Origin: Verrucomicrobiia bacterium
GTDB taxonomy: Bacteria; Verrucomicrobiota; Verrucomicrobiia; Verrucomicrobiales; Akkermansiaceae
Assembly: GCA_030432565.1 (NCBI GenBank)
Contig: JAUIGV010000025.1
Location: 1 to 64,000 of the forward strand
Reading direction: 5' to 3'
Length of the DNA stretch: 64,000 nt
The notes beneath the pieces are model-generated. The model was given only the letters and a program-made list of their open reading frames with translations. It had not been told where the DNA came from and did no database searches. A program made the position numbers and the translations under genes. Below are positions 38,544 through 50,907 of the stretch, piece after piece; the first letter of the stretch is position 1; the number at the start of each line of letters is the position of its first letter.

Positions 38544-40058
38544 TTAGTTCTGCTGGAACTGAACACGAAGGAAGCAAGGATTGACGTTATAGGGCTCACG
38601 GCTCAGCACACTGACCCGCTGGTCGTTATCGAACACGATGAACCAGTTCGGATCTCCCTGCTCGATGGTAATCCAAGTCTCCAGATCAACAGAGTATTGG
38701 ATGATGTAATCCAAGCGGGAACCTACGGCAGGGCGCTTGGCAATCTCCAGATAGCACTGATCGTTTCCGATCAAAGTCGGAGTTGGGTTGGGAACCGAAG
38801 CTGGATCAAGCGGATCGGTCTGGAGGCCAAACTCTTCCAGGTTGGTAAATCCATCTCCATCGAAATCAGCATCGGGGGCGATTAGAGCATCAGGACTCCC
38901 GGCCGGGAAGGTCACAATCACGAAACCTGCGTAGGTATCGATAAGATCAATATCCCACTGGAAAACCCTCACCGATCGATCGACCGTATCTCCGACGGGC
39001 TGCTCGCGAACGAATTCAAGCTCCACCAAAAGCTGCCGGTTGGGTCCAAAAAAGTCGGGACCGAGTTCATATCCGGTTGGAATCCCGAGATCGCTGCTAC
39101 CGATGAGCTGGGGAAGCTCGGGGTTGGGTGGGTTTGGCCCTGGAGGATTCGGGTTGGGAATCGGCGGGAAGAAGATCTTCCGCGTCTCACGGTCCCGAAC
39201 GGAGAAGAAAACGCGATCCCCTGCGAGGAAGGTCTGGGAATTAAACCCTTCCCATTGGAAGTCGAAGACGATTCGTGGATCAAACTCCATCACCTCGCCA
39301 TTCCAGCGATCGTCATTGGTGAGGCGGAAATCATTTCCAACGCCGATACCCCCGCTCACGACATTGCGGCCTCCCGGCCCGGGGACTGCTTCCACCATCT
39401 CACGGTGGGCGGCATTCATGAAGAAATTTGCCGGATTGTTTTCGTCCGAACCAAGCGCGGGGAACTTGAAAATATAGCTTCCGGGAACGATTTCATCACG
39501 ATGGCGCTCAAGTTCGTTTGGAAGGTAAAAACGGGTCGACTCATAGTCGGTAAATTCATACCCGACTCCATTCACAGGATCGTTAATCAGGTCGTAGAAA
39601 ACAACCGTGCTGTTATCAATCCAGTTGAATCCGCTAAGGGGACGGGGTAGATCGGAAGGAGGAGCTGAAAATAACTCCACGAGTCCGGTCTGGAAGGGCT
39701 CAATACTGCGCGCGGGAATCGGCTGGCTCACCGAAACATAAACCCCGACATCACGTACTCCATCACCATCAAAGTCACCTTGGGTAACCAGGCCCGTGGT
39801 TCCACTCGGACAAGTGATGTTTGGCGGTGTGTATAAAAAGCCGAAATTCGCCGCACATCCGAGAACAACCGCATTCCCATCGAAAACGCGAACAAACCAA
39901 GTGCCGCCTTGGTATCTGGAATCATCCGGCCCGATCATCTTGAAGGTTTTCGTGTCCCGAAACGTGAGATCAAGGGTGTCAACAAACTGTGCCTGGGCCA
40001 AAGAGGCCGTCAGTGAAAAGGCACCCGCAAGCAGGGCCGTGGATTTTGCGATATTCAT
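38544..40058 (-). CDS. secreted protein of unknown function with calcium loops and C-terminal module
   Basis: 504 residues from ATG 40058 (frame open to 40103). Signal peptide SKTALLAG-type, ending LAQAQ. A calcium-type loop QGDFDGDGVRDVGVYV lies early (~95). A Pro/Asn-rich hinge (PPIPNPNPPGPNPPNPELP) divides the protein. Near the end is DFDGDGFTNLEEFGLQTDP, then LDYIIQYSVDLETW and CFLRVQF, similar to the endings of the subtilase downstream and the proteins at 5265 and 11529. It may be co-transcribed with the subtilase (50 bases apart), but no function can be read. Confidence 0.7.
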   Translation of the reverse strand: MNIAKSTALLAGAFSLTASLAQAQFVDTLDLTFRDTKTFKMIGPDDSRYQGGTWFVRVFDGNAVVLGCAANFGFLYTPPNITCPSGTTGLVTQGDFDGDGVRDVGVYVSVSQPIPARSIEPFQTGLVELFSAPPSDLPRPLSGFNWIDNSTVVFYDLINDPVNGVGYEFTDYESTRFYLPNELERHRDEIVPGSYIFKFPALGSDENNPANFFMNAAHREMVEAVPGPGGRNVVSGGIGVGNDFRLTNDDRWNGEVMEFDPRIVFDFQWEGFNSQTFLAGDRVFFSVRDRETRKIFFPPIPNPNPPGPNPPNPELPQLIGSSDLGIPTGYELGPDFFGPNRQLLVELEFVREQPVGDTVDRSVRVFQWDIDLIDTYAGFVIVTFPAGSPDALIAPDADFDGDGFTNLEEFGLQTDPLDPASVPNPTPTLIGNDQCYLEIAKRPAVGSRLDYIIQYSVDLETWITIEQGDPNWFIVFDNDQRVSVLSREPYNVNPCFLRVQFQQN

Positions 40059-40226
40059 TTTCGAAGGTGTTTGCAATGCATTTACATGTGTTTGAGAACC
40101 CAATCAAACGAAAAACTGTCGTTATCAATTTTTTCGATCAATTCAGTGAGCCCAAGCGCCTAATAGTGCTTCGTTGGAGACTAGCTGGCTGGGACGAAAG
40201 CCGACAAGCGCAAAATCCGCGCAAAA

Positions 40227-42110
40227 TTAACGCATCCCCTGCAAAAGGAGTTCTGTGTTCGATTTTGTCCGTGCCAAATTGCGCAAGAGAGTCTCGATGG
40301 CCTCTCCAATGGGCAGGCTGGCGAGATGGCGGCGGATTTCCTGAACTCTTGGTAATTCATCAGGATGATAGAGCCGATCATCGTTTCGGGTGCCACTTTG
40401 AGGAATATGAATGGCCGGATAAATCCGTTGCTCGGCCAATTCACGGTCAAGGCGGACCTCCATGTTACCGGTTCCCTTCAACTCCTCAAAAATGACATCG
40501 TCCATGCGGTTCTCGGTCTCAATCAAGCAAGTTGCTAAAATCGTCAGGCTTCCACCCTCTTCAACATTCCGGGCCGCTCCAAAAAACTTCCGGGTTTCCG
40601 TGATCGCCTTGGGGCTGACCCCGCCCGAACCAATCGGACCACCCCGCGAGGCATTATTGTAGCCACGCGCCAGTCGGGTTAAGCTATCCAGCAAAATCAC
40701 GACATCCTTTCCCTGCTCCACCAGCCGACGGGAACGCTCGAGGACAAGATTGGCCACATCGGCGTGCCTCTTGGATGGTTCGTCGAAAGTCGACGCAAAA
40801 ACGTTTTGCCCCACCACTTCCTCAAAATCGGTCACCTCCTCCGGACGCTCATCCAAAAGCAGGATCACCAACTCCGTGCCCGGCGAATTCATCTGGATCG
40901 ATTTCGCAATCTGCTTGAGAAGAATGGTTTTTCCTCCGCGGGGAGGCGCCACAATCAAACCACGCTGCCCCTTTCCGAGTGGAGCGACGAGATCCACCAC
41001 CCGTGTTGCGAGCCCGGCACCATCGTCGGCCCCCTCGAGAACAAAGCGCTCCTCCGGGAAAAGGGACGTCAGTGAATCGAAATGAGTCGGTTGTTCGTAA
41101 TCAGCCAAGGCCACCCCTTCGATCTCGAGAATCTCAAGGGCCGATAAAAACTTGTCCCGATGCTTGGGCTCGCGAATTGAAACCTTCAATCGCTGCCCTT
41201 CCCGCAGACCGTGCTCCTGCAACATTTGCGCGGGCACATAGATGTCATCGGGAGAACTCCGGAAGCTTCGGGCTTCATCCCTGATCATGGCGTAGTTTCC
41301 ACCCGTGAATTCCAGAACACCCTCCCCTTCAATTCGCGTCCCGTGAGTTGCGTAACAAGAGAGAATGGTAAAAGCCAACTGGGCGCGGGTCACCTGATTG
41401 GGAATTCGGACCGGAAGACGCTCAACCTCATCATAAAGATCACTTAGCGGCTCATTTCGAAATTCATTCAAGTTAATTTCGTCCGGCACCTCGGGTGGGG
41501 GCGGCGGAGGGGTCTCTACCTTCTTCGGAGCCTTTTCTTCAGACTTCTCTTTATTTTCCGGAGTTTCTTTAACTTCCCCTTCTTCCACCACCGCGATCCC
41601 CTCCTCCCCGGGAGCTTCCGCGGCGGCCTTCTCGTCCGAATGCCCAGCCTCCTTGCGGACCTTGGGTTCAACGGCCTTTCTGGAAACCTTTTTGGCTGCA
41701 GCCTTTTTCTTTGCCTCAAGAGCTGCTTTTGCCGCCTTCTCGGCCGCCAAACGGGCAACCTCGGCAGCCTTCGCTGCAGCTTCCGCAGCTTTTGCAGCCG
41801 CCAATTCAGCGGCAGCGGCCTCTGCCATGGCAGTCTCCTCCTCGTCCGGGATCACCTCTTTCATCTCCTCAATCCCGAGCGCCAGCTCCGGAGATTCCTC
41901 AATTCCGACCTTCCTGGCTACGGCCTTTTTAGCCGCTTTCCTGGCCGTTTTCTGAACGGCTTTTTTGGCGACTTTCTTCGCCGCCTTCTTGGCTGCCTTT
42001 TTGGTCGCTTTCTTCGCTGCCTTTTTGGCAGCCTTCTTAGCCGCTTTTTTAACCGTGGGTTTGGCAGCTAATTCTTCGGTTGGCTCGATAGGCTCTTGCT
42101 CGTCAGTCAT
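40227..42110 (-). CDS. rho: transcription termination factor Rho with histone-H1-like N-terminal extension
   Basis: 627 residues from ATG 42110, against ~420 in E. coli. The C-terminal ~400 residues are a complete Rho: RNA-binding domain ([15 protein letters not shown]), Walker A in [16 protein letters not shown], Walker B in [15 protein letters not shown], and the R-loop/Q-loop region with [13 protein letters not shown] and [14 protein letters not shown]. Residues ~14-55 are a run of [12 protein letters not shown]-type repeats, followed by an acidic, Ala-rich stretch and then Pro-Pro-Pro, all of low complexity. Rho insertions before the RNA-binding domain are known in several phyla; the H1-like lysine repeat should add nonspecific nucleic-acid affinity. 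Its start overlaps coaE by four bases. Confidence 0.96.
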
Positions 42111-42709
42111 GGAATAGAAAGGGTTTTCAGGAATCGTGCGAGTTGCCTCTCCAAAACGGCAGGACAACCCTCATTCCAAAAAACGACATCCCCTCGTGCC
42201 ACCTTCTCCATAATGGGAAGCTGTGCTTTGAGGATTGATGAAATCATCCTGTCTTCGAAGTGACTCCGAGCCTTGAGGCGGGTTCGTTGCGTGGCTTCGG
42301 AAGTTGCCACGACCAGATTAAGCTCCTGATCAAAGTCAAATCCGCTCTCAAAAAGAAGCGGCACATCAGCGACAAACAGCGTCGTTGAGGGGTTTGTAGA
42401 AGAAATCTCGCGTTTCTCAAGACATTCCTTTCGCACTTTTGGATGCAACACCGCCTCCAATCTTGACCGCTGATCCTCGTTTTCAAAAACCAAGGCCCGC
42501 AAACCCGCTCGATCCAGGCTTCCATCAGGCAAAATCACCGACTGCCCCAAAGCCTCCGAGATCTCTTTAAGGACCCGGCCCTTCTTTAACAAACCCTGCA
42601 CCGATTCATCACAGTCAAAATATGCCATCGTTGGCAACAAACGTTGCATCAGCTTCCCCGCTGTCGACTTCCCCGTCGCGATGCCACCGGTCAGAGCAAA
42701 TGTTCTCAT
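42107..42709 (-). CDS. coaE: dephospho-CoA kinase
   Basis: Phosphorylates the ribose 3'-OH of dephospho-CoA, the last step of CoA synthesis. 200 residues from ATG 42709, the normal CoaE size; the frame stays open to 42898, but that part crosses the secretin terminator and has no family similarity. Motifs: P-loop LTGGIATGKST (~6-16), FDCDESVQGLL (~31), HPKVRKE, FVADVPLLFESG and the lid RTRLKARSHFEDR. Its TGA overlaps the rho ATG (ATGA), so the two are translationally coupled. Confidence 0.95.
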   Translation of the reverse strand: MRTFALTGGIATGKSTAGKLMQRLLPTMAYFDCDESVQGLLKKGRVLKEISEALGQSVILPDGSLDRAGLRALVFENEDQRSRLEAVLHPKVRKECLEKREISSTNPSTTLFVADVPLLFESGFDFDQELNLVVATSEATQRTRLKARSHFEDRMISSILKAQLPIMEKVARGDVVFWNEGCPAVLERQLARFLKTLSIP

Positions 42710-42762
42710 CGCAATAAAATCTCCCGGATCATTCCAAAACACCAGCTCTTGCTCCAAAAACA

Positions 42763-42796
42763 AAAAAGCGGGACCTGCACTGCAGATCCCGCTTTG
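42763..42796 (-). terminator. terminator of the secretin operon
   Basis: Minus strand: AAAGCGGGA (42795-42787) pairs with TCCCGCTTT (42773-42765), loop of 13 bases, T-run at the end. It lies 18 bases after the secretin stop codon and separates the five-gene operon from coaE-rho. Confidence 0.88.
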
Positions 42797-42812: not shown

Positions 42813-45419
42813 TTAATCTCCGGGGAGACTTGGAAGCGCCGTATTTGCAGCTCCACCTCCAACCGAAATTGGAGAAGAGGTCGGATCATCACCGCCATTC
42901 ACCCGCTTACCAGTGGCATCAATGATCTCAGCAGTCACGAAGATGATGAGGTTACTCTTGATGTGGTTTTGAGCTTTGGTCTGGAAGAGACGTCCGACGA
43001 AGGGCAGGTCACCAAGAATGGGCACCTTGTCTTCGACACTTTGGACATCCTCGCGCATCAGACCACCAACAGCCACCGTGTAGCCGTCATAGATGGTCAG
43101 ACCGGTCTTCACACTACGGATCGAGAAGACAGGCATCTCGATGCGGTTCTCGGTGATGACAATCTGCACAGGGTTGCCGAGTGCGTCCGTTGCCGGAGCA
43201 GTGATCGGGCTACCATAGTTGATGAATCCCTCGAACTCGACGATGGTCGGAGTGAAGCGAAGCTCAATGATGCTGTCATTGGCATCGATCTGGGCTTCCA
43301 CCTCAAGAGTCACGCCTGTGTTCTTGGTATCGAATGCCGAAGGAGTTGCGGGAGTCACCGGGAAACCGGCTCCACCACCACCACCGCCAATACCACCTTG
43401 CTGGCCGCCGATGCCGCCACCAACCTGGTTGGGAAGCTCGGGTGGTTCGTATTCGGTAGGATAGATAAACTCACGAATGATCTCGATCGTGGCACTCTGT
43501 CCGGGAAGGGCAACAACGCTTGGCGCGGTCATGATGTCCGCCCCCTTCTTCTGGGAAAGTCCACGCATGATCATCTGGATCTGACCGCTGCTGAACAGAC
43601 CGGTCATGGAGAGGATACCGGGAGCAACGCTGTTGGCCTGGGCCGTCCGCGTTGGATTGTTCAAGATGGCATCAATGCTGTTGCGATTGATTGCCGCCGA
43701 ACCACTTCGGAGACCGGAGGTTACGATATTGGAGACATTCTCCTGGGGAGAAGCCGGGATTCCGGGAATGTTCACCCGATCCACCGTGCCAATAAAGTCC
43801 TGGTTGCTGCGGGCAGTTCCGCTACCAACGGTGCCACCACCGAGGAAGTAGTTACTGCCGAATCCAAACGGAGTCGCAATCCAGTCAAATCCGAGCTCTT
43901 CACCATTCTCCTGGGAAACCTCCACAAACTTGGTGGTCACGCGGATCTGGCGGGGAGTGTCATTGATGGCCGCCTGAACGATACCATCGATCAACTCGAG
44001 GTTGGTTGGAGTGTTCCGCACGATGAGAGTGCTGGAACTCTTCAGGAAACTGGCCGAGGAATTTGCCGGGAAGGAAACTCCATTCTCCTTGAGGAGAGTC
44101 ACGATGTCCTTGCGGGGCTCGATACCGGCAGGGCCGTTATCGTCTGCTGCAGCAAAAGGATCGGGATCGCCACCACCACCGGCACCACCGTCACCACCAC
44201 TGGTGGTAATGAAAGTCTCAAAGGTGGGAGGAACAGTCCAGCGACGCTGCACGATGTCGGCGTCGGCACCTTCAGTGATAGGAAGAAGGGTGACCGCGAA
44301 CTCGTCAACCTTGTAGCGAAGCTTGGCCTCGTCACAAATGTATTGCAGGGCTACACGAAGAGGAACCTGTCTCAGCTCGAGGTTCTTGATCAGGATGGCG
44401 TTGGGGTCGGTGGCATCACCAAATCCGCCGTCGAGAGCTTCGTCATCGCCGGCCGCATCTCCGGCCGCATCAAGAGTCTTCGGAGTGCGAACCACGAAGT
44501 TAATCCCCTTCTGACTTTCGTCGATCACGGTGTTGTCCAACTCAATGGAACGGAGGCGGAGGAATTCAACAGCCTCTTCCACCGTGATGTTGTTCAACTT
44601 CACCTCGGGAATGATGATTTGATTGAGCTTCGCAATGATCGAACGCTCGCGGTCGCGATCCGGGTTGAGATCGGGTCCCTGGTTGACACGCTCGCCGAGA
44701 GGAGGAACGGCAAGTTCCCACGCACGGTCGACCTGCATGAGCATCTCGGCACGGGTCTGATCGTAGGCGGCGCGGTAGTAGTCCGACTTAATGGCCGAGC
44801 AACGCTCCATCCAACGGCGGGCTGCCTTGTTGTAGGGGTCGATGCGAAGGACCTGCTTGAATTCTTCTTCAGCCTTGTCGTAGAGACCAAGGTTGTAATA
44901 GCTCTCACCCTTGTAGAGGAAGCGGCGGACCTGATCGACATTTTTGGTATGTTCGTAGGTCAGTCCGGCCTCGGTGCGAATCGGGTCGTCGAGATACTCT
45001 AGGCCTTTCTTGGAGGCCATGTTACCAGGATTGTTCTTGTCGATCTCCTCGAGGAGGTCGCGGGCTTCCTGATACTTGCCCTGGCGGCGGTATTTCTGGG
45101 TCAGGGCAACGGAACCCTCTTCGAGGCTCTTCGTGATGAAGGCACGACGATCGCTGGTCGCGGTTCCATACGGGAGGGTGTTCAGGGCCTCACGATATTT
45201 TTGAACTGCGGTTTCGTATTCGCCCTCGGCGTAGGCCTCACGACCTTCGTTAAGGAGTTCATCGGCCTTGGCCACGTCCTGCTGACGACGAATCATTTCT
45301 TGCGCGAGCAGGTCACTCTCGTTTTGACCGTATCCGGTCTCGACTGAGAGCGGCGCGATCACGAGTGCCGCAAGGGCAAACATGGTGCGATGAGTTAGGT
45401 GTGTTTGTCTCTTCTGCAT
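42813..45419 (-). CDS. secretin of a type IV pilus-like system (Amuc_1098-like)
   Basis: 868 residues. Signal peptide (MFALAALVIAPLSVETGYG). Residues ~50-210 are TPR-like (AYAEGEYETAVQKYREAL, YYNLGLYDKAEEEFKQVLRIDP), an N-terminal extension also known in the Akkermansia homologue. Then come N0/N1-type domains (NITVEEAVEFLRL; RQIRVTTKFVEVSQ) and the C-terminal secretin domain: ALPGQSATIEI, GVTLEVEAQI, VAVGGLMREDVQ, KVPILGDLPFVGRLFQTK and SNLIIFVTAEI. It should form the outer-membrane pore. It is the last gene of a five-gene operon and is followed by a strong terminator. A Gly-rich loop (GGGIGGQQGGIGGGGGG) lies before the pore strands. Confidence 0.92.
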   Translation of the reverse strand: MQKRQTHLTHRTMFALAALVIAPLSVETGYGQNESDLLAQEMIRRQQDVAKADELLNEGREAYAEGEYETAVQKYREALNTLPYGTATSDRRAFITKSLEEGSVALTQKYRRQGKYQEARDLLEEIDKNNPGNMASKKGLEYLDDPIRTEAGLTYEHTKNVDQVRRFLYKGESYYNLGLYDKAEEEFKQVLRIDPYNKAARRWMERCSAIKSDYYRAAYDQTRAEMLMQVDRAWELAVPPLGERVNQGPDLNPDRDRERSIIAKLNQIIIPEVKLNNITVEEAVEFLRLRSIELDNTVIDESQKGINFVVRTPKTLDAAGDAAGDDEALDGGFGDATDPNAILIKNLELRQVPLRVALQYICDEAKLRYKVDEFAVTLLPITEGADADIVQRRWTVPPTFETFITTSGGDGGAGGGGDPDPFAAADDNGPAGIEPRKDIVTLLKENGVSFPANSSASFLKSSSTLIVRNTPTNLELIDGIVQAAINDTPRQIRVTTKFVEVSQENGEELGFDWIATPFGFGSNYFLGGGTVGSGTARSNQDFIGTVDRVNIPGIPASPQENVSNIVTSGLRSGSAAINRNSIDAILNNPTRTAQANSVAPGILSMTGLFSSGQIQMIMRGLSQKKGADIMTAPSVVALPGQSATIEIIREFIYPTEYEPPELPNQVGGGIGGQQGGIGGGGGGAGFPVTPATPSAFDTKNTGVTLEVEAQIDANDSIIELRFTPTIVEFEGFINYGSPITAPATDALGNPVQIVITENRIEMPVFSIRSVKTGLTIYDGYTVAVGGLMREDVQSVEDKVPILGDLPFVGRLFQTKAQNHIKSNLIIFVTAEIIDATGKRVNGGDDPTSSPISVGGGAANTALPSLPGD

Positions 45420-45541
45420 GATCTGGTTGATTTATTGTTGATTTGTGGGGGGGGTGGAAGCTCTTTTTTCGAAAACGCTAAAGTTTCCTGCTTCCTCCCC
45501 TTCCCCGGGCTTGAGTTTTAAGATGATTTGGTGACTTGGAT

Positions 45542-46603
45542 TTATTGGGCAGGCACCGGAATTTCAACGGTTTTAACCTCTTCGCCGACCTTGTATTCAA
45601 CAACGACTGCTTCAGGCTTACGGTCGGCATCGAGCTTCACCTCGATGAGCTTGTAGATCTTCTCAGCGCCACTAAAAGGAAGCGCAAAGGTTCCGTTCTC
45701 CTCAAGAGTGAAGTTATTCCCCTCTTCGCCGATCGCGTTGAGGCGAAGGGTGACACGGTGATCATAGAAGGTGATATCCCTCAACTGTTTGGCATCCGCA
45801 TTGAACGGCAGCTCGAAAACGTTCTTATTCTTGCTGGGATGCTGGTCTTCAATCTTGGCCCAATCGCGCATTCGCTCGCCGGCAGGCCCCTGCTCCGGAC
45901 GCTGAACGACCTCAAGCAACTTGAAACGATCCTTCCCCGGATCTTCCGAGAAGAAGGTATCCCCAATTGCGATCGCTTCCGAAGCGGGAATCCGGTTCGT
46001 CGCCGGACGCTTCTGCCCGAAGGGGATGAAGGCGTAATCAAACTGAAAACCCTGTCCGAGGACGGTCTTGAAGAGGAGACGCCAGGTGTCGCTCTCCACT
46101 TTGACGACCTCAAGCTTGTCAATGAGAGCCCCATAATCATCGGGATCGTTGGGATCGGTCTTTGCAAGGTATTCCTCCTTGTTGGTGAAACCGTCGGAGT
46201 CCTGATCTCTCATCGGAGAGTCCGAATAGGAAGGATCAATGCGCTTATCGACCCACCACTGGTTATCAATCGGCGGGTGGACAGGTTCAATCTTCAGGAG
46301 ATCGAGGAGCTTCATCTTGTCACCATCCTTGGTGTAAAGATCGACACTCGTGAAGAGATCGACCGGACGCCCGGAGGAGGTCTTTTGCTGTATGACGGCA
46401 TCCTCCTCGGTGAGCATCTTGCTTACTGAGGCGGCAATTTCACCACCGGCAGAGGTGGTATCTTTCCCCGGGTTGGGGTTGGGCGCGTTGAACGTAGCGT
46501 TCACGGCTTGGTTACCGCTGTATCCGAGGTAGCCGAGCCCCGCGAGAACGAGGGCTCCGCCGCCAAGGGCTGCGATGTGGTAGTTTTCTTTAATCCAGGA
46601 CAT
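45542..46603 (-). CDS. Amuc_1099-like membrane-anchored protein
   Basis: 353 residues. N-terminus MSWIKENYHIAALGGGALVLAGLGYLGY: a short cytoplasmic MSW-KEN tail and one transmembrane helix, the same plan as the next gene upstream (46619). The periplasmic part has a calcium-type loop DQDSDGFTNKEEYLAKTDPND (~125-145) and beta-rich ends (YKLIEVKLD, VEYKVGEEVKTVEIP). By order and topology it corresponds to Amuc_1099, in the slot where type IV pilus systems have the inner-membrane/secretin linker PilP. 122 bases separate it from the secretin gene; 15 from the 1100-like gene. Confidence 0.8.
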   Translation of the reverse strand: MSWIKENYHIAALGGGALVLAGLGYLGYSGNQAVNATFNAPNPNPGKDTTSAGGEIAASVSKMLTEEDAVIQQKTSSGRPVDLFTSVDLYTKDGDKMKLLDLLKIEPVHPPIDNQWWVDKRIDPSYSDSPMRDQDSDGFTNKEEYLAKTDPNDPDDYGALIDKLEVVKVESDTWRLLFKTVLGQGFQFDYAFIPFGQKRPATNRIPASEAIAIGDTFFSEDPGKDRFKLLEVVQRPEQGPAGERMRDWAKIEDQHPSKNKNVFELPFNADAKQLRDITFYDHRVTLRLNAIGEEGNNFTLEENGTFALPFSGAEKIYKLIEVKLDADRKPEAVVVEYKVGEEVKTVEIPVPAQ

Positions 46604-46618
46604 GTTTTCGTAGGTGTT

Positions 46619-47617
46619 TTATTTGAGTTCTGGGAGGTTCTCCTCCTCGATGAAGAGAAGGAGGTCGGCACGGAGATAGACAATAAGTTCTTCGCCACCG
46701 GACACCTTGTCGAGAATCTTGACAGATTCGACAGGCTCGTCCTCGGCTGGCTCATCACCCACGATTTCCACATCACCAAAGGCCCCTTCACTCTTCTTTT
46801 CAGTGGAGGCAGCCTTCCCGGCGCTTGGAATGCTTGCGGGATTCAAAACCCGGGCAAGGCGGATCTCGTAGAAATACTGATCGGAGTTGCAAATACGCTT
46901 TAAAAACTCACGCACGACAGGCTCGGGAGCCTTAAAAGTGAGCTCAACCGGCATACGGCGGGCGATGGTCGGGAGTTTTTCGAACTTTGGAGGACGAACC
47001 TCATTGGGATCACGCTTCGCGGGGCGCGTCTTACGGGGCTCTTTCTTCGCCTCGCGAGTGCCGGGCCAACCGTATCCTTCTTCCTGGGGAAGAGGCTCGC
47101 GAACGAGGCTTTCAATCTGCTTCACTCCGGCTCCTGAAGCCTCGGTCATGAGATATTCGATCGCATCGAGTTGATAGTTCAGAATACCGGTGGCCTCCGG
47201 ACGGGGGAGGCTGCCGCGATACTTCTGAAATCCAAGATGGAACCCATTGGGAATGGCTTTCTCGCCGGGGAAGAGTGCTGTCACCTTTTCCACGGTCTCC
47301 GTGAGTTTGGCGGCAAAGTCCTTACCGGAGATGTCCTCCATTTTCTCGGGACGGAAGGCCAGGAGCTTCTCGCGAACCTCATTTGCTTTCGCAATGACAT
47401 CCTTGAGGCTCTTTTCCTTGTCCATCGCGTTCTCGCGGGTTGGGTATGGATTGAGACTCTTGTCTTTCTTAACGGTGGCTTCCTTTGCCGCGACCTGCTG
47501 CTGGACTTCCTCCAGGCTGGTGCCGGCCTTCATCCCAAGGAAGATGATGACCGCAGCCAGCAGGATCGTGATTGTCAGCAATCCGCCGAGGAACTTGTTT
47601 TCTTTAAACCAGGACAT
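46619..47617 (-). CDS. Amuc_1100-like PilO-type membrane protein
   Basis: 332 residues. MSWFKENKF, then a helix (GGLLTITILLAAVIIFLGM), then a coiled coil (~33-110, LEEVQQQVAAKEATVKK) and a two-part periplasmic domain. Landmarks also found in Amuc_1100: HLGFQKYRGSLPRPEAT...LNYQLDAIEYLM (LGF..Y and L-x-A-I-x-x-L), RRMPVELTFKAPEP, a QYF block, and a final beta strand (VYLRADLLLF). This is the PilO-like fold. The Akkermansia protein is an abundant outer-surface-associated protein known to signal through host TLR2; whether this homologue does so cannot be told. Operon context is the best evidence. Confidence 0.82.
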   Translation of the reverse strand: MSWFKENKFLGGLLTITILLAAVIIFLGMKAGTSLEEVQQQVAAKEATVKKDKSLNPYPTRENAMDKEKSLKDVIAKANEVREKLLAFRPEKMEDISGKDFAAKLTETVEKVTALFPGEKAIPNGFHLGFQKYRGSLPRPEATGILNYQLDAIEYLMTEASGAGVKQIESLVREPLPQEEGYGWPGTREAKKEPRKTRPAKRDPNEVRPPKFEKLPTIARRMPVELTFKAPEPVVREFLKRICNSDQYFYEIRLARVLNPASIPSAGKAASTEKKSEGAFGDVEIVGDEPAEDEPVESVKILDKVSGGEELIVYLRADLLLFIEEENLPELK

Positions 47618-47644
47618 AGTGAGTGATTTTAGGGTGCGTGTGAA

Positions 47645-49399
47645 TTATTTGTGTTGGAACGGCGTCTTCAGTGGAATGAGCATCTCAAAGGGAGCCGCGT
47701 AGTCGTTGGTCTCTTGTTCGGGTGTCGCCTTGATTCGAGCGAGCTGGTTGTCCGGGATGGGCTTGCCCTTGGCATCGACAAACTTAAAGATTTCGGATCC
47801 TTTGAACTTTTCGAGAATATCAAGAACCTCGGTCTGCTTGTTCAGGTGGAGGCCTCTGATGATCACGCTGTCGACCCAGGTCTCCTCCTTCATCAGGGGA
47901 GAATTGCCGGGAGTGGTGGTCGCGAAGCTCTCGTCCATGACCGGATCGCTCTTGGCGTCGCCCGTGACTTGATACTTGGTGCGGTATTCAAAATCAGTCA
48001 GCCAGACATTCTCGCTCACGAAAGCCGAGGACACGTCGTTCCAGGTTTTGATGAAGCTGAGGCGGCCGTTTTCGGCTGCTGCGTAGGCGTTGATGAGCCC
48101 CACACTCTTCTCCTCATCCTTGAGGAGCTTTTTGATCTTGGTGGCGGACTGCTGGATGGTTTGAGCCTCCTGATCAAGCTTGGCAAGATGAGCCTCACCA
48201 TCGCTGACCGACTTGATCTTGAAACCGGCCCAAGCGCCGAGACCGGCGATAAACAGAGCCGAGGCTGTGATAAGGGCAGGCTTCCGGCGGGTAATGTCCC
48301 GCTGGGCCTGAACGGCTTCGGGGACCAGGTCAATGTTGATCGTTGCGTTGTCCGAAGCGCGCAAAGCAAGACCGACAAGCTCGCCGAGTTGGTGGGCTTC
48401 GCGACCGATGGCATCGACGTCGACTCCCTTGCCGACCGAAATCCGTTGAAGCGGATTGAAGGTTTCGACAGGAAGGTTGAGCTTCTCCTCGAGGAACTCA
48501 CGGAGATAGGGAAGATTGGCCGTTCCACCGGCAAGAAGGACCTTCTGCGGAGCGTTCCCGCCCTGTTGGCTTCGGAAAAGAGTGTTGGTGCGCTGAATCT
48601 CCGCAGTGAGGCGGGTCAGGGCATTCCGGACCACCGTTCCGAGAGCGGCAGTTGCTTCGTCCAATTGTCCGGCGTGACCTCCTCCGAGGGTCACCAGTCC
48701 GCTGGTCAGCTTGCTGTTTTCGGCCTCGGCGAAGGCAACATTGTATTCTTTCGCAATTGCACTGGTGAGATTGGCTCCGCCAATCGAGACCGAGCGAGTG
48801 AAGAACTTCTTTCCATCGGCATAAATCAGATTGGATGTTTTCGCACCGATATCGAGCAAGAGGACACATTCCTCCAGTCCGGGATAATTATAGCGGAAAG
48901 CATTATAAAGAGCAGTCGGAGCCGAGTCGACCAAACGGGTGCCGAGACCGGTATCGGCAACAACCGAGTTCAAATCGTTCAGAGAGTCGGCCTTGATGGC
49001 GACCAGGACAACCTCGTTCTCAATGCCATCGGTCTCAAGCTTCTCCCAGTCCCAAACCACCTCGTCGATGGGGAAGGGAACATTTTGCTGGGCTTCAAAT
49101 CGCACCAGCTCCCCCATGTTCTCGGTCTCGAGAGGCGGAAGCTTGACGAAACGCACAAAGACCGACTGCCCCGAAAGAGCGTAGGCTGTCTTTTGTTTGT
49201 CAACCTTGAGTCCCTGGGCGAGCTCTTTGATGGCAAGTTGGACCTGTGGGATGCGCGCGGCTTCCGTGGCAGGGTCCGCGAGAATACTGGTGGCGGCGTA
49301 TTTCTTGAGGATCAGACCTTTTTTGGTCGGGGCAAAAACGCCCATGGAGATCCTTTGAGAACCGATATTAAGTGCAATGATCGACTGTTGGTCAGCCAT
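47645..49399 (-). CDS. PilM-PilN-like fusion of the pilus-type operon (Amuc_1101-like)
   Basis: 584 residues in two parts. Residues ~1-360 are PilM, an actin-like ATPase fold: SIIALNIGSQRISMGVF, VRFVKLPPLE, VPFPIDEVVWDW, LLLDIGAKTSNLIYADGK, TRSVSIGGANLTSAIA and KVLLAGGTANLPYLREFLEE. Residues ~375 onward look like PilN: a transmembrane helix (ALITASALFIAGLGAWAGF, ~378-396), a coiled coil (AHLAKLDQEAQTIQQ) and a ferredoxin-like periplasmic domain. In most pilus systems PilM and PilN are separate proteins that bind each other, so the fusion fixes the pair covalently. It lies 27 bases before the 1100-like gene. Confidence 0.9.
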   Translation of the reverse strand: MADQQSIIALNIGSQRISMGVFAPTKKGLILKKYAATSILADPATEAARIPQVQLAIKELAQGLKVDKQKTAYALSGQSVFVRFVKLPPLETENMGELVRFEAQQNVPFPIDEVVWDWEKLETDGIENEVVLVAIKADSLNDLNSVVADTGLGTRLVDSAPTALYNAFRYNYPGLEECVLLLDIGAKTSNLIYADGKKFFTRSVSIGGANLTSAIAKEYNVAFAEAENSKLTSGLVTLGGGHAGQLDEATAALGTVVRNALTRLTAEIQRTNTLFRSQQGGNAPQKVLLAGGTANLPYLREFLEEKLNLPVETFNPLQRISVGKGVDVDAIGREAHQLGELVGLALRASDNATINIDLVPEAVQAQRDITRRKPALITASALFIAGLGAWAGFKIKSVSDGEAHLAKLDQEAQTIQQSATKIKKLLKDEEKSVGLINAYAAAENGRLSFIKTWNDVSSAFVSENVWLTDFEYRTKYQVTGDAKSDPVMDESFATTTPGNSPLMKEETWVDSVIIRGLHLNKQTEVLDILEKFKGSEIFKFVDAKGKPIPDNQLARIKATPEQETNDYAAPFEMLIPLKTPFQHK

Positions 49400-49449
49400 A
49401 GTTTTTATGTGTGGGTGTGGAGAAAATTAGTGGGGAGTAGCCCAGGGCT

Positions 49450-50079
49450 TCAGTCTTTTGGCTGAACTTCGGCGTAGCGGTCGTACCAAAGTGCGGCAAA
49501 AGGAGTCTGGGTTTTGTCGAGCAGAGGAAATTTCGAAGTCGCTTCGACCCCCTTCAGGGCTTCGCGCCACCAGCCGGCTTTTTGGCCATGACTGAAGAAG
49601 CCGACCATTTTGCCACCCCACTCAATCTCACCACCGATGGCTTCGAGATCCGATTTACTGGCCTTGGTGCTTCCGGTAATCCGCTTGAGCGTATTCGGAG
49701 AAATGTAAATTGAGACAAAAACAGGCTCATCAACCGGAATGTTCACATAGGTGACTGTTTTGCTGATCTTGTAGGCTTTGCGATCCTGCCCTTTCACCAC
49801 GACGTGCCAGTTGACGTTGATCTGATCAAGATATCCGTCCTTGGGCTCGTTGCGCAGGCGGTCAGGCTGTAACTTCACCTCAACCTCGAGCCAGTCCTTG
49901 GGTTTGAAATTCTTGGCATTGCCATCCTGAATCTCGGGAGACTGCAATTCGGTAAACTTCGGATCATCAACCTTAAACTTCGCATCTTTTGAAACCTCGA
50001 GCTGTCCAAAAGCGCTGGTGGAGAGGCTCAGACCGCACGCAAGAGGGAGAATGGATTGAAGAAATCTCTGTTTATTCAT
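49450..50079 (-). CDS. Amuc_1102-like secreted protein, first gene of the pilus-type operon
   Basis: 209 residues from ATG 50079; the frame continues to 50265 but without signal peptide and into the aroD promoter region. Signal peptide MNKQRFLQSILPLACGLSLSTSAFGQ. Beta-rich body (WLEVEVKLQPDR, INVNWHVVVKG, EPVFVSIYISPNTLKRI) ending KTQTPFAALWYDRYAEV. In Akkermansia the corresponding protein has an immunoglobulin-like fold and is made with the locus. A full-length paralogue is at 7401-8027. 50 bases lie between it and the PilM/PilN gene. Confidence 0.8.
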   Translation of the reverse strand: MNKQRFLQSILPLACGLSLSTSAFGQLEVSKDAKFKVDDPKFTELQSPEIQDGNAKNFKPKDWLEVEVKLQPDRLRNEPKDGYLDQINVNWHVVVKGQDRKAYKISKTVTYVNIPVDEPVFVSIYISPNTLKRITGSTKASKSDLEAIGGEIEWGGKMVGFFSHGQKAGWWREALKGVEATSKFPLLDKTQTPFAALWYDRYAEVQPKD

Positions 50080-50235
50080 GATTTGTTGAAAGGTTTCGCA
50101 GAGGCTATGAAATCCGCACGGGGGGCGGCTAGCAAAAAACCGTGATACGGCTTGTTTTTTTAACAGTTGACAGCGCTCAACGATTCTGTCCGAAGGCCTT
50201 TGACAAATACAAATCCCCCACCCCACTCTCCGTTC

Positions 50236-50907
50236 ATGACGCAGCAAGGGCCAATGAACCAACATTTGTCGGACGGAAAAAGACTCGTTGTCGGGGCAAT
50301 TGCCGACTCCATGACTCTTTCCACCACCCCGACCGGTTGTGATGTGGTGGAATTGCGGCTCGATTCATTGGGAACCGGAGAAAATGTGCATCAATTCGCA
50401 AGGGATTGTCCACTGCCCATCCTGGTGACCGCAAGGGGTCCGGAGGAAGGCGGTCAAAGCGACTGGTCCATAGAAGAAAGAGCGGATGCTTATCGCTCAT
50501 TCCTGCCACAGGCTTCGCTCATCGACATTGAACTCCGTGACCTGGATGCTTTCAGCGGGGTCATTGACGAAGCCAGGAGCCTCGGAATCCCTCTGATCGG
50601 CTCCTTCCACGATTTCACCGCGACTCCGGAGCCTGAATCGCTGGCCGAAAAAATCGATTCACGGGTCGACATCCACAAGTTCGCCCTCATGACGCAGTCG
50701 ACGAAGGACGTTATCAAGCATCTCGCGATTTTCGAGCATCTTCCCGGACGCGCTTTGTCCGTCATGGGCATGGGACCTCTCGGCGCGGCGGCCCGGCCCC
50801 TGATGGCCGAAGCGGGATCGCTTTTAAACTATGGGTATCTGGGGATTACCCCGACCGCCCCCAACCAGTGGCCCGCCGAATTACTCAAGGCCACTCTTGC
50901 GATCTAA
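50236..50907 (+). CDS. aroD: 3-dehydroquinate dehydratase, type I
   Basis: Third step of the shikimate pathway: dehydration of 3-dehydroquinate through a Schiff base. From ATG 50236 it has 223 residues; ATG 50254, with AAGGG just before it, is an equally good start. Active-site residues: VVELRLDSLG (Glu-Leu-Arg), IGSFHDF (His) and VDIHKFALM (the Schiff-base Lys), with PLGAAARPL near the end. Divergent from the pilus-type operon and convergent with the helicase gene, their stops directly adjoining. Confidence 0.92.
   Translation: MTQQGPMNQHLSDGKRLVVGAIADSMTLSTTPTGCDVVELRLDSLGTGENVHQFARDCPLPILVTARGPEEGGQSDWSIEERADAYRSFLPQASLIDIELRDLDAFSGVIDEARSLGIPLIGSFHDFTATPEPESLAEKIDSRVDIHKFALMTQSTKDVIKHLAIFEHLPGRALSVMGMGPLGAAARPLMAEAGSLLNYGYLGITPTAPNQWPAELLKATLAI

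Follow-up and report, generated by a model that had tools for sequence, protein, structure and literature searches.

The closest described counterpart of the locus analysed here is the Amuc_1098-1102 locus of Akkermansia muciniphila (Ottman 2017; PMC5332112). The corresponding MUL2 locus (1099-1102) was described in aquatic Akkermansiaceae by Wilkie et al. 2026 (ISME J, April 2026; PMC13174399), who found it surrounded by the secretin, coaE, rho and aroD genes, left the motor unnamed and called 1099 and 1100 uncharacterised. As MUL2 of aquatic Akkermansiaceae has thus been published, the present operon is an already known find. As a find it is ordinary, and its usefulness lies in the detail: a motor is assigned, 1100 is identified as PilO-like, 1102 is unlikely to be a pilin, and a twin PilB is described. 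Two further systems were used for comparison, the type IVa pilus (PilMNOPQ; Myxococcus, Pseudomonas) and the type II secretion system (T2SS), which belong to a common superfamily.

The window, a stretch of 64,000 nucleotides from a genome of the family Akkermansiaceae, contains the genes 1102-1101-1100-1099-1098 as one co-directional run on the minus strand, as judged by ORF positions (Table 1). Within it, the analysis covered the operon and the regions close by. The first-pass annotation had recognized an Amuc_1098-1102-type operon with five genes in this order, and all five proteins indeed passed the curated cut-offs of the respective NCBIfam models. The five families, their order and strand, and the neighbours coaE, rho and aroD are all shared with A. 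muciniphila and with MUL2 of aquatic Akkermansiaceae; in the Akkermansia locus inspected (L056) the same operon order is followed by coaE and rho. The terminator postulated at the end of the operon was confirmed as a hairpin. Since a terminator scan returned 12 sites versus about 15 expected by chance, the number of sites is uninformative; the hairpin at 42795-42765 is distinguished by its stem length, by far the longest found, and by its position after the secretin stop codon.

Some gene boundaries were adjusted. The start of 1102 at position 50079 is a better choice than that of the longer ORF 49450-50265, which is over-extended because 1102 homologues mostly comprise ~208 amino acids. The aroD-like ORF overlaps this over-extended ORF, and its true start therefore probably lies further in. 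The start of coaE was estimated from the first methionine of the conserved domain, and the rho ORF may be over-extended at its start. The operon is preceded by a dinG-like and the aroD-like gene and followed by coaE and rho. In many relatives coaE likewise follows 1098, rho too is a conserved neighbour, and the position of the aroD-like gene is also conserved, as noted beside the locus by Wilkie et al. (PMC13174399). At 38544-40103 of the window (minus strand), a protein with a TSP3-type repeat resembling that of 1099 is encoded, a homologue of which comes after rho in many relatives.

Table 1. Features of the operon, its neighbours and related loci in the same genome (positions refer to the window).
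Feature	Position or contig	Strand	Evidence
Amuc_1102-family exported protein (MUL2A)	49450..50079	-	NF042424, 201 bits (cut-off 55)
Amuc_1101-family PilM-PilN fusion (MUL2B)	47645..49399	-	NF045709, 750 bits (cut-off 650)
Amuc_1100-family inner-membrane protein, PilO-like predicted fold	46619..47617	-	NF038287, 219 bits (cut-off 180)
Amuc_1099-family protein	45542..46603	-	NF042425, 276 bits (cut-off 50)
Amuc_1098-family secretin, N-terminal TPR repeats	42813..45419	-	NF042912, 1081 bits (cut-off 750)
Intrinsic-terminator-like hairpin 3' of secretin gene	42765..42795	-	14-pair stem, T-rich tail
coaE, dephospho-CoA kinase (neighbour outside machine)	42107..42712	-	TIGR00152, 112 bits
rho, transcription termination factor (neighbour outside machine)	40227..42167	-	Rho models, 473-478 bits
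aroD-like 3-dehydroquinate dehydratase (divergent neighbour)	50167..50907	+	TIGR01093, E 4e-26
PilB1-PilB2-PilC-pilin locus	contig C48		domain scans: PilB, PilB, PilC, N_methyl pilin
PilT pair	contig C3		two PilT/PilU-family proteins over cut-off
PilT pair	contig C41		
Prepilin peptidases, Peptidase_A24	contigs C8, C55		C8 protein with both A24 domains
GspE-GspF	contig C70		
GspK/L/M/D-like set	contig C34		
PilM, two small proteins, secretin, GspE, GspF, PilT	contig C42, 9.8 kb (L028)		

Protein 1101 starts with a PilM actin-like domain (residues ~1-350) that matched TIGR01175 (PilM) with 167 bits and M. xanthus PilM (3jc8) with an E value of 1e-37. Because this domain is followed by a transmembrane segment (~373-395) and a C-terminal part recognized by Pfam PilN, albeit weakly (four of 11 family members, best E 2e-4), 1101 is taken as a PilM-PilN fusion. 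For 1100, Foldseek searches with an AlphaFold2 model (pLDDT 82.7) retrieved the Amuc_1100 crystal structures first, with only ~14-17% identity to Amuc_1100 in the structural alignment. PilO, the sole convincing structural match beyond these crystals, came next (3jc8_Oa, probability 1.00; 2rjz_A, 0.99; 5uvr, 0.97), and 1100 is thus PilO-like by its predicted fold. Comparison with PilO by sequence (Pfam on family alignments) yielded nothing convincing, with one of 37 members matching at E 0.027.

Protein 1099 has an N-terminal transmembrane segment, a TSP3-type DxDxDGxxNxxE loop (~133-144) and a beta-rich region. The loop, its sole recognized motif, was kept in all 67 close homologues, and the Akkermansia genomes examined have the variant DPDNDGFTVQEE; Pfam TSP3_bac was detected in 27 of 37 family members. 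Judging from this motif, 1099 would bind calcium. Its gene occupies the PilP/GspC position. An identity of 1099 with PilP was rejected, as its model (pLDDT 84.2) had no match in the PDB at E≤0.001 (Foldseek) and PilP was absent by Pfam across 37 members of the family. A scan for 1099 in viral contigs found nothing. The possibility had been raised that the middle genes are ordinary PilO and PilP genes. This applies to 1100 as far as its fold is concerned; by sequence, both 1100 and 1099 differ from ordinary PilO and PilP, and the cluster is therefore not of the proteobacterial type. In 1098, Pfam TPR and Secretin domains were found, and GspD/PilQ structures matched the C-terminus; the PilQ model scored far under its cut-off and the GspD model reached 105 bits (cut-off 351). 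Protein 1102 matched the Amuc_1102 crystal structure 7dsz (E 6e-29).

The Amuc_1100 family was detected in 224 of 289 sampled genomes of the phylum (E≤0.001). As the curated cut-off was reached by only 30 genomes, the family is strongly divergent, and missed copies may be among the 65 genomes lacking a detected 1100. A weak match in a genome of family f16 (G022; E 9e-7) lies within an intact 1101-1100-1099-1098 order, which is also intact in a genome of family f26 (G040). In 14 control genomes outside the phylum, one sub-threshold match was found. A scan of named genomes returned 569 relatives of 1101. Gene order across Verrucomicrobiota was compared, as had been suggested, for the best 80, most of which come from environmental Akkermansiaceae and related Verrucomicrobiales. 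The complete operon order was present in 67 of these 80; in 12 the locus runs off the contig, and in one (Rubritalea marina, L142) 1100 and 1099 were undetected. Among the best 80 of 569, the nearest relative was the environmental MAG SFB_South_Co_22 (L072), whose 1101 is 99% identical, in agreement with the earlier description of an apparently free-living organism. The first-pass annotation was likewise right in locating the operon outside the gut, but overstated the point: such an occurrence is usual in the phylum and has been published for aquatic loci (PMC13174399). Its suggestion of an older envelope role rather than host signalling is also supported.

Genes for a motor, a pilin and a prepilin peptidase had been reported missing. 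This is correct for the operon and its immediate flanks, where none was found, but not for the genome (5.9 Mb, 82 contigs): the search for Pil genes elsewhere, recommended at the time, located PilB1, PilB2, PilC and a pilin on contig C48, where the pilin gene follows pilC. Contig C3 carries a PilT pair, and prepilin peptidases are encoded on C8 and C55. A motor missing from the organism was accordingly rejected. PilB1, PilB2 and PilC all score below the curated cut-offs of type IV pilus and T2SS models alike, so that the choice between pilus and secretion-system names is left undecided by sequence. The PilT motif normally reads GExRD; GEMRN is found in the second of the two tandem PilTs on C3 (L030:5689-6771), and GEMRD in its partner. 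On contig C56 (L036:2-5049), about seven similar pilin-like proteins are encoded in tandem, most of them with an ALANAKS motif, and one member scored as an N_methyl pilin.

PilB1 and PilB2 formed two clades with supports of 93/98 and 100/99 (ultrafast bootstrap/SH-aLRT) in a small tree with long-branched outgroups and midpoint rooting only. Genomes from six families (f1, f5, f9, f16, f22 and f26) are represented in both clades, which fits an old duplication kept across the phylum. A dead copy was considered for one of the two and rejected, as the ATPase motifs are intact: the Walker A motif, the GExRD box and two CxxC motifs are kept in all PilB1 and PilB2 proteins examined. The adjacency of their genes suggests that the two ATPases serve one machine.

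Since the motor lies on a different contig from the operon and the genome has three loci with PilC, the pairing of operon and motor rests on relatives. Genus g2 corresponds to Akkermansia (1100 of G033 versus the Amuc_1100 crystal sequence, E 3e-162), and 22 of its 22 genomes have one PilC with two T2SSF domains. In the three Akkermansia genomes opened (G033, G111, G232), this single PilC sits in a PilB1-PilB2-PilC-pilin locus, with which the C48 locus shares gene order and best matches gene by gene. In each of five g2 genomes checked, two secretins and two PilT-type proteins accompany PilB1 and PilB2. In family f22, motor and operon form one cluster, PilB1-PilT-PilB2-PilC-pilins-1101-1100-1099-1098 (L059, G015); in a second genome (L058, G157) the same motor block adjoins 1101-1100-1099-1098, followed by coaE and rho. 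PilB1 comes after coaE-rho in locus L190. Two genomes (G176, G208) possess a single PilC and a single secretin each, the latter being 1098 of the operon. PilC was present in 224 of 224 genomes with 1100, and 1100 in none of eight genomes without PilC (counting probability 5e-6, uncorrected for kinship); the latter belong to only two families and therefore represent about two independent cases. The motor on C42 was rejected as partner of the operon, since this separate, fuller type IV filament locus has its own PilM, secretin, GspE, GspF and PilT, and the single motor of the opened Akkermansia genomes is of the C48 type instead.

We consider it likely that the operon encodes the stationary half (the alignment platform and the gate in the outer membrane) of a type IV pilus-type machine common to the phylum as a whole, the moving half of which is supplied by other loci. 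The PilM-PilN fusion 1101 would lie at the cytoplasmic face with 1100 as its PilO-like partner, 1099 would be a periplasmic connector anchored in the inner membrane, and 1098, a secretin with built-in TPR repeats, the exit of the pilus. The moving half would consist of the two PilB-type ATPases, PilC and the class III pilin of C48, the PilT pair of C3 and a prepilin peptidase (C8 or C55). PilB1/PilB2 and PilC would assemble the pilus, which would pass outward through 1098 and be retracted by the PilTs, most likely holding or drawing in polymeric glycans. Such a role in glycan attachment or uptake is suggested by literature on relatives: mucin accumulation requires MUL genes including pilus genes, as summarised in a review (PMC12418764), and uptake of labelled fucoidan was described for marine Akkermansiaceae (PMC13174399). 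Several points run counter to this proposal. They include the unconvincing PilO match of 1100 at the sequence level, the pairing with the motor by way of relatives, and the scores of PilB1, PilB2 and PilC below the cut-offs. Neither by sequence nor by fold does 1099 match PilP or GspC, and Amuc_1100 and Amuc_1102 were reported to be surface-exposed or pilin-like (PMC5332112, PMC13174399), a poor fit with a purely periplasmic platform.

Compared with the type IVa pilus, the genome shares a PilM domain, a PilO-like fold, a secretin and a weakly recognized, fused PilN, and elsewhere encodes PilB, PilC, PilT, an N-methyl pilin and a prepilin peptidase. Unlike in that system, PilM and PilN are fused, TPR repeats are on the secretin itself, 1102 is additional, and two conserved PilB paralogues exist. 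A PilP linking platform and secretin was not found; in its place stands the unrelated-looking TSP3 protein 1099, which fits by position only. The operon might instead provide platform and secretin of a T2SS-like protein exporter with a short pseudopilus and no surface pilus. With all scores under cut-off, PilB2 is slightly closer to the GspE model than to PilB, and the best-scoring model for PilC is GspF; the 1101 fusion joins the same two parts as GspL, and clusters of family f22 encode three N-methyl-type proteins of pseudopilin size and a protein of 690-700 amino acids in a GspK-like position. Yet neither PilB1, PilB2 and PilC nor 1098 exceeded the equivalog cut-offs for GspE, GspF and GspD, 1101 has a full PilM domain, 1100 resembles PilO and not GspM, and GspK/L/M/D-like proteins are encoded by a set of their own on C34 of this genome. 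Moreover, in three families (L058/L059, L063, L194) PilT-family ATPases are part of the motor clusters, and to our knowledge T2SSs have no retraction ATPase. An exporter is therefore regarded as rather unlikely.

It is scarcely credible that the operon does without the C48 motor and serves, for instance, as a motorless envelope channel or a scaffold for host signalling, the co-occurrence reflecting shared ancestry only. In favour of this, operon and motor lie on separate contigs here and far apart in the Akkermansia genome inspected, and Amuc_1100 by itself acts on TLR2 of the host (PMC5332112). Against this stand the single gene cluster of f22, the lack of any genome with 1100 but without PilC, and the genomes with a single secretin and a single PilC; a host-specific role is also at odds with the phylum-wide spread of 1100. 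A structural pilin of the system could be sought in 1102, the first gene product of the operon, whose likeness to an archaeal type IV pilin has been published (PMC13174399). In a simple pattern test, as opposed to a trained predictor, a GFxxxE-type class III prepilin leader was found in none of 80 homologues, the N-termini resemble Sec signal peptides, and a true N_methyl pilin gene follows pilC. By its sequence features, 1102 is very improbable as a pilin and would rather be an exported accessory protein of the pilus-type machine.

The combination of twin intact PilBs, a PilM-PilN fusion, a TPR-secretin, a calcium-binding TSP3 connector replacing PilP and polysaccharide capture may define a distinct, phylum-wide class of type IV filaments in which the PilB pair has travelled together since early in the phylum; this proposal is tentative, and we place it slightly below an even balance. 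If the operon is the stationary half of a pilus-type machine, Amuc_1100, developed as a host-signalling protein, would be one fixed part of a pilus machine common to environmental and gut members. Naming the motor (PilB1-PilB2-PilC with the adjacent pilin) provides a handle on whether glycan uptake and host effects need a working pilus.

Further secretins of the 1098 type were encountered. Contig C64 of this genome encodes a second Amuc_1098-family secretin over cut-off (L070:10916-13504; 840 bits), which adjoins a 542-amino-acid protein without Pfam match; several proteins are encoded upstream of it (L070:13948-19896), three of them resembling part of 1098. Akkermansia genomes also have a second 1098-like secretin, in G033 again with a neighbour of the 542-amino-acid type (L185). 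In families f16 and f26, two tandem 1098-type secretins are located at the end of the operon (L191:7427-12310, L193:7184-11907); these cluster together in the tree, apart from the Akkermansiaceae paralogue.
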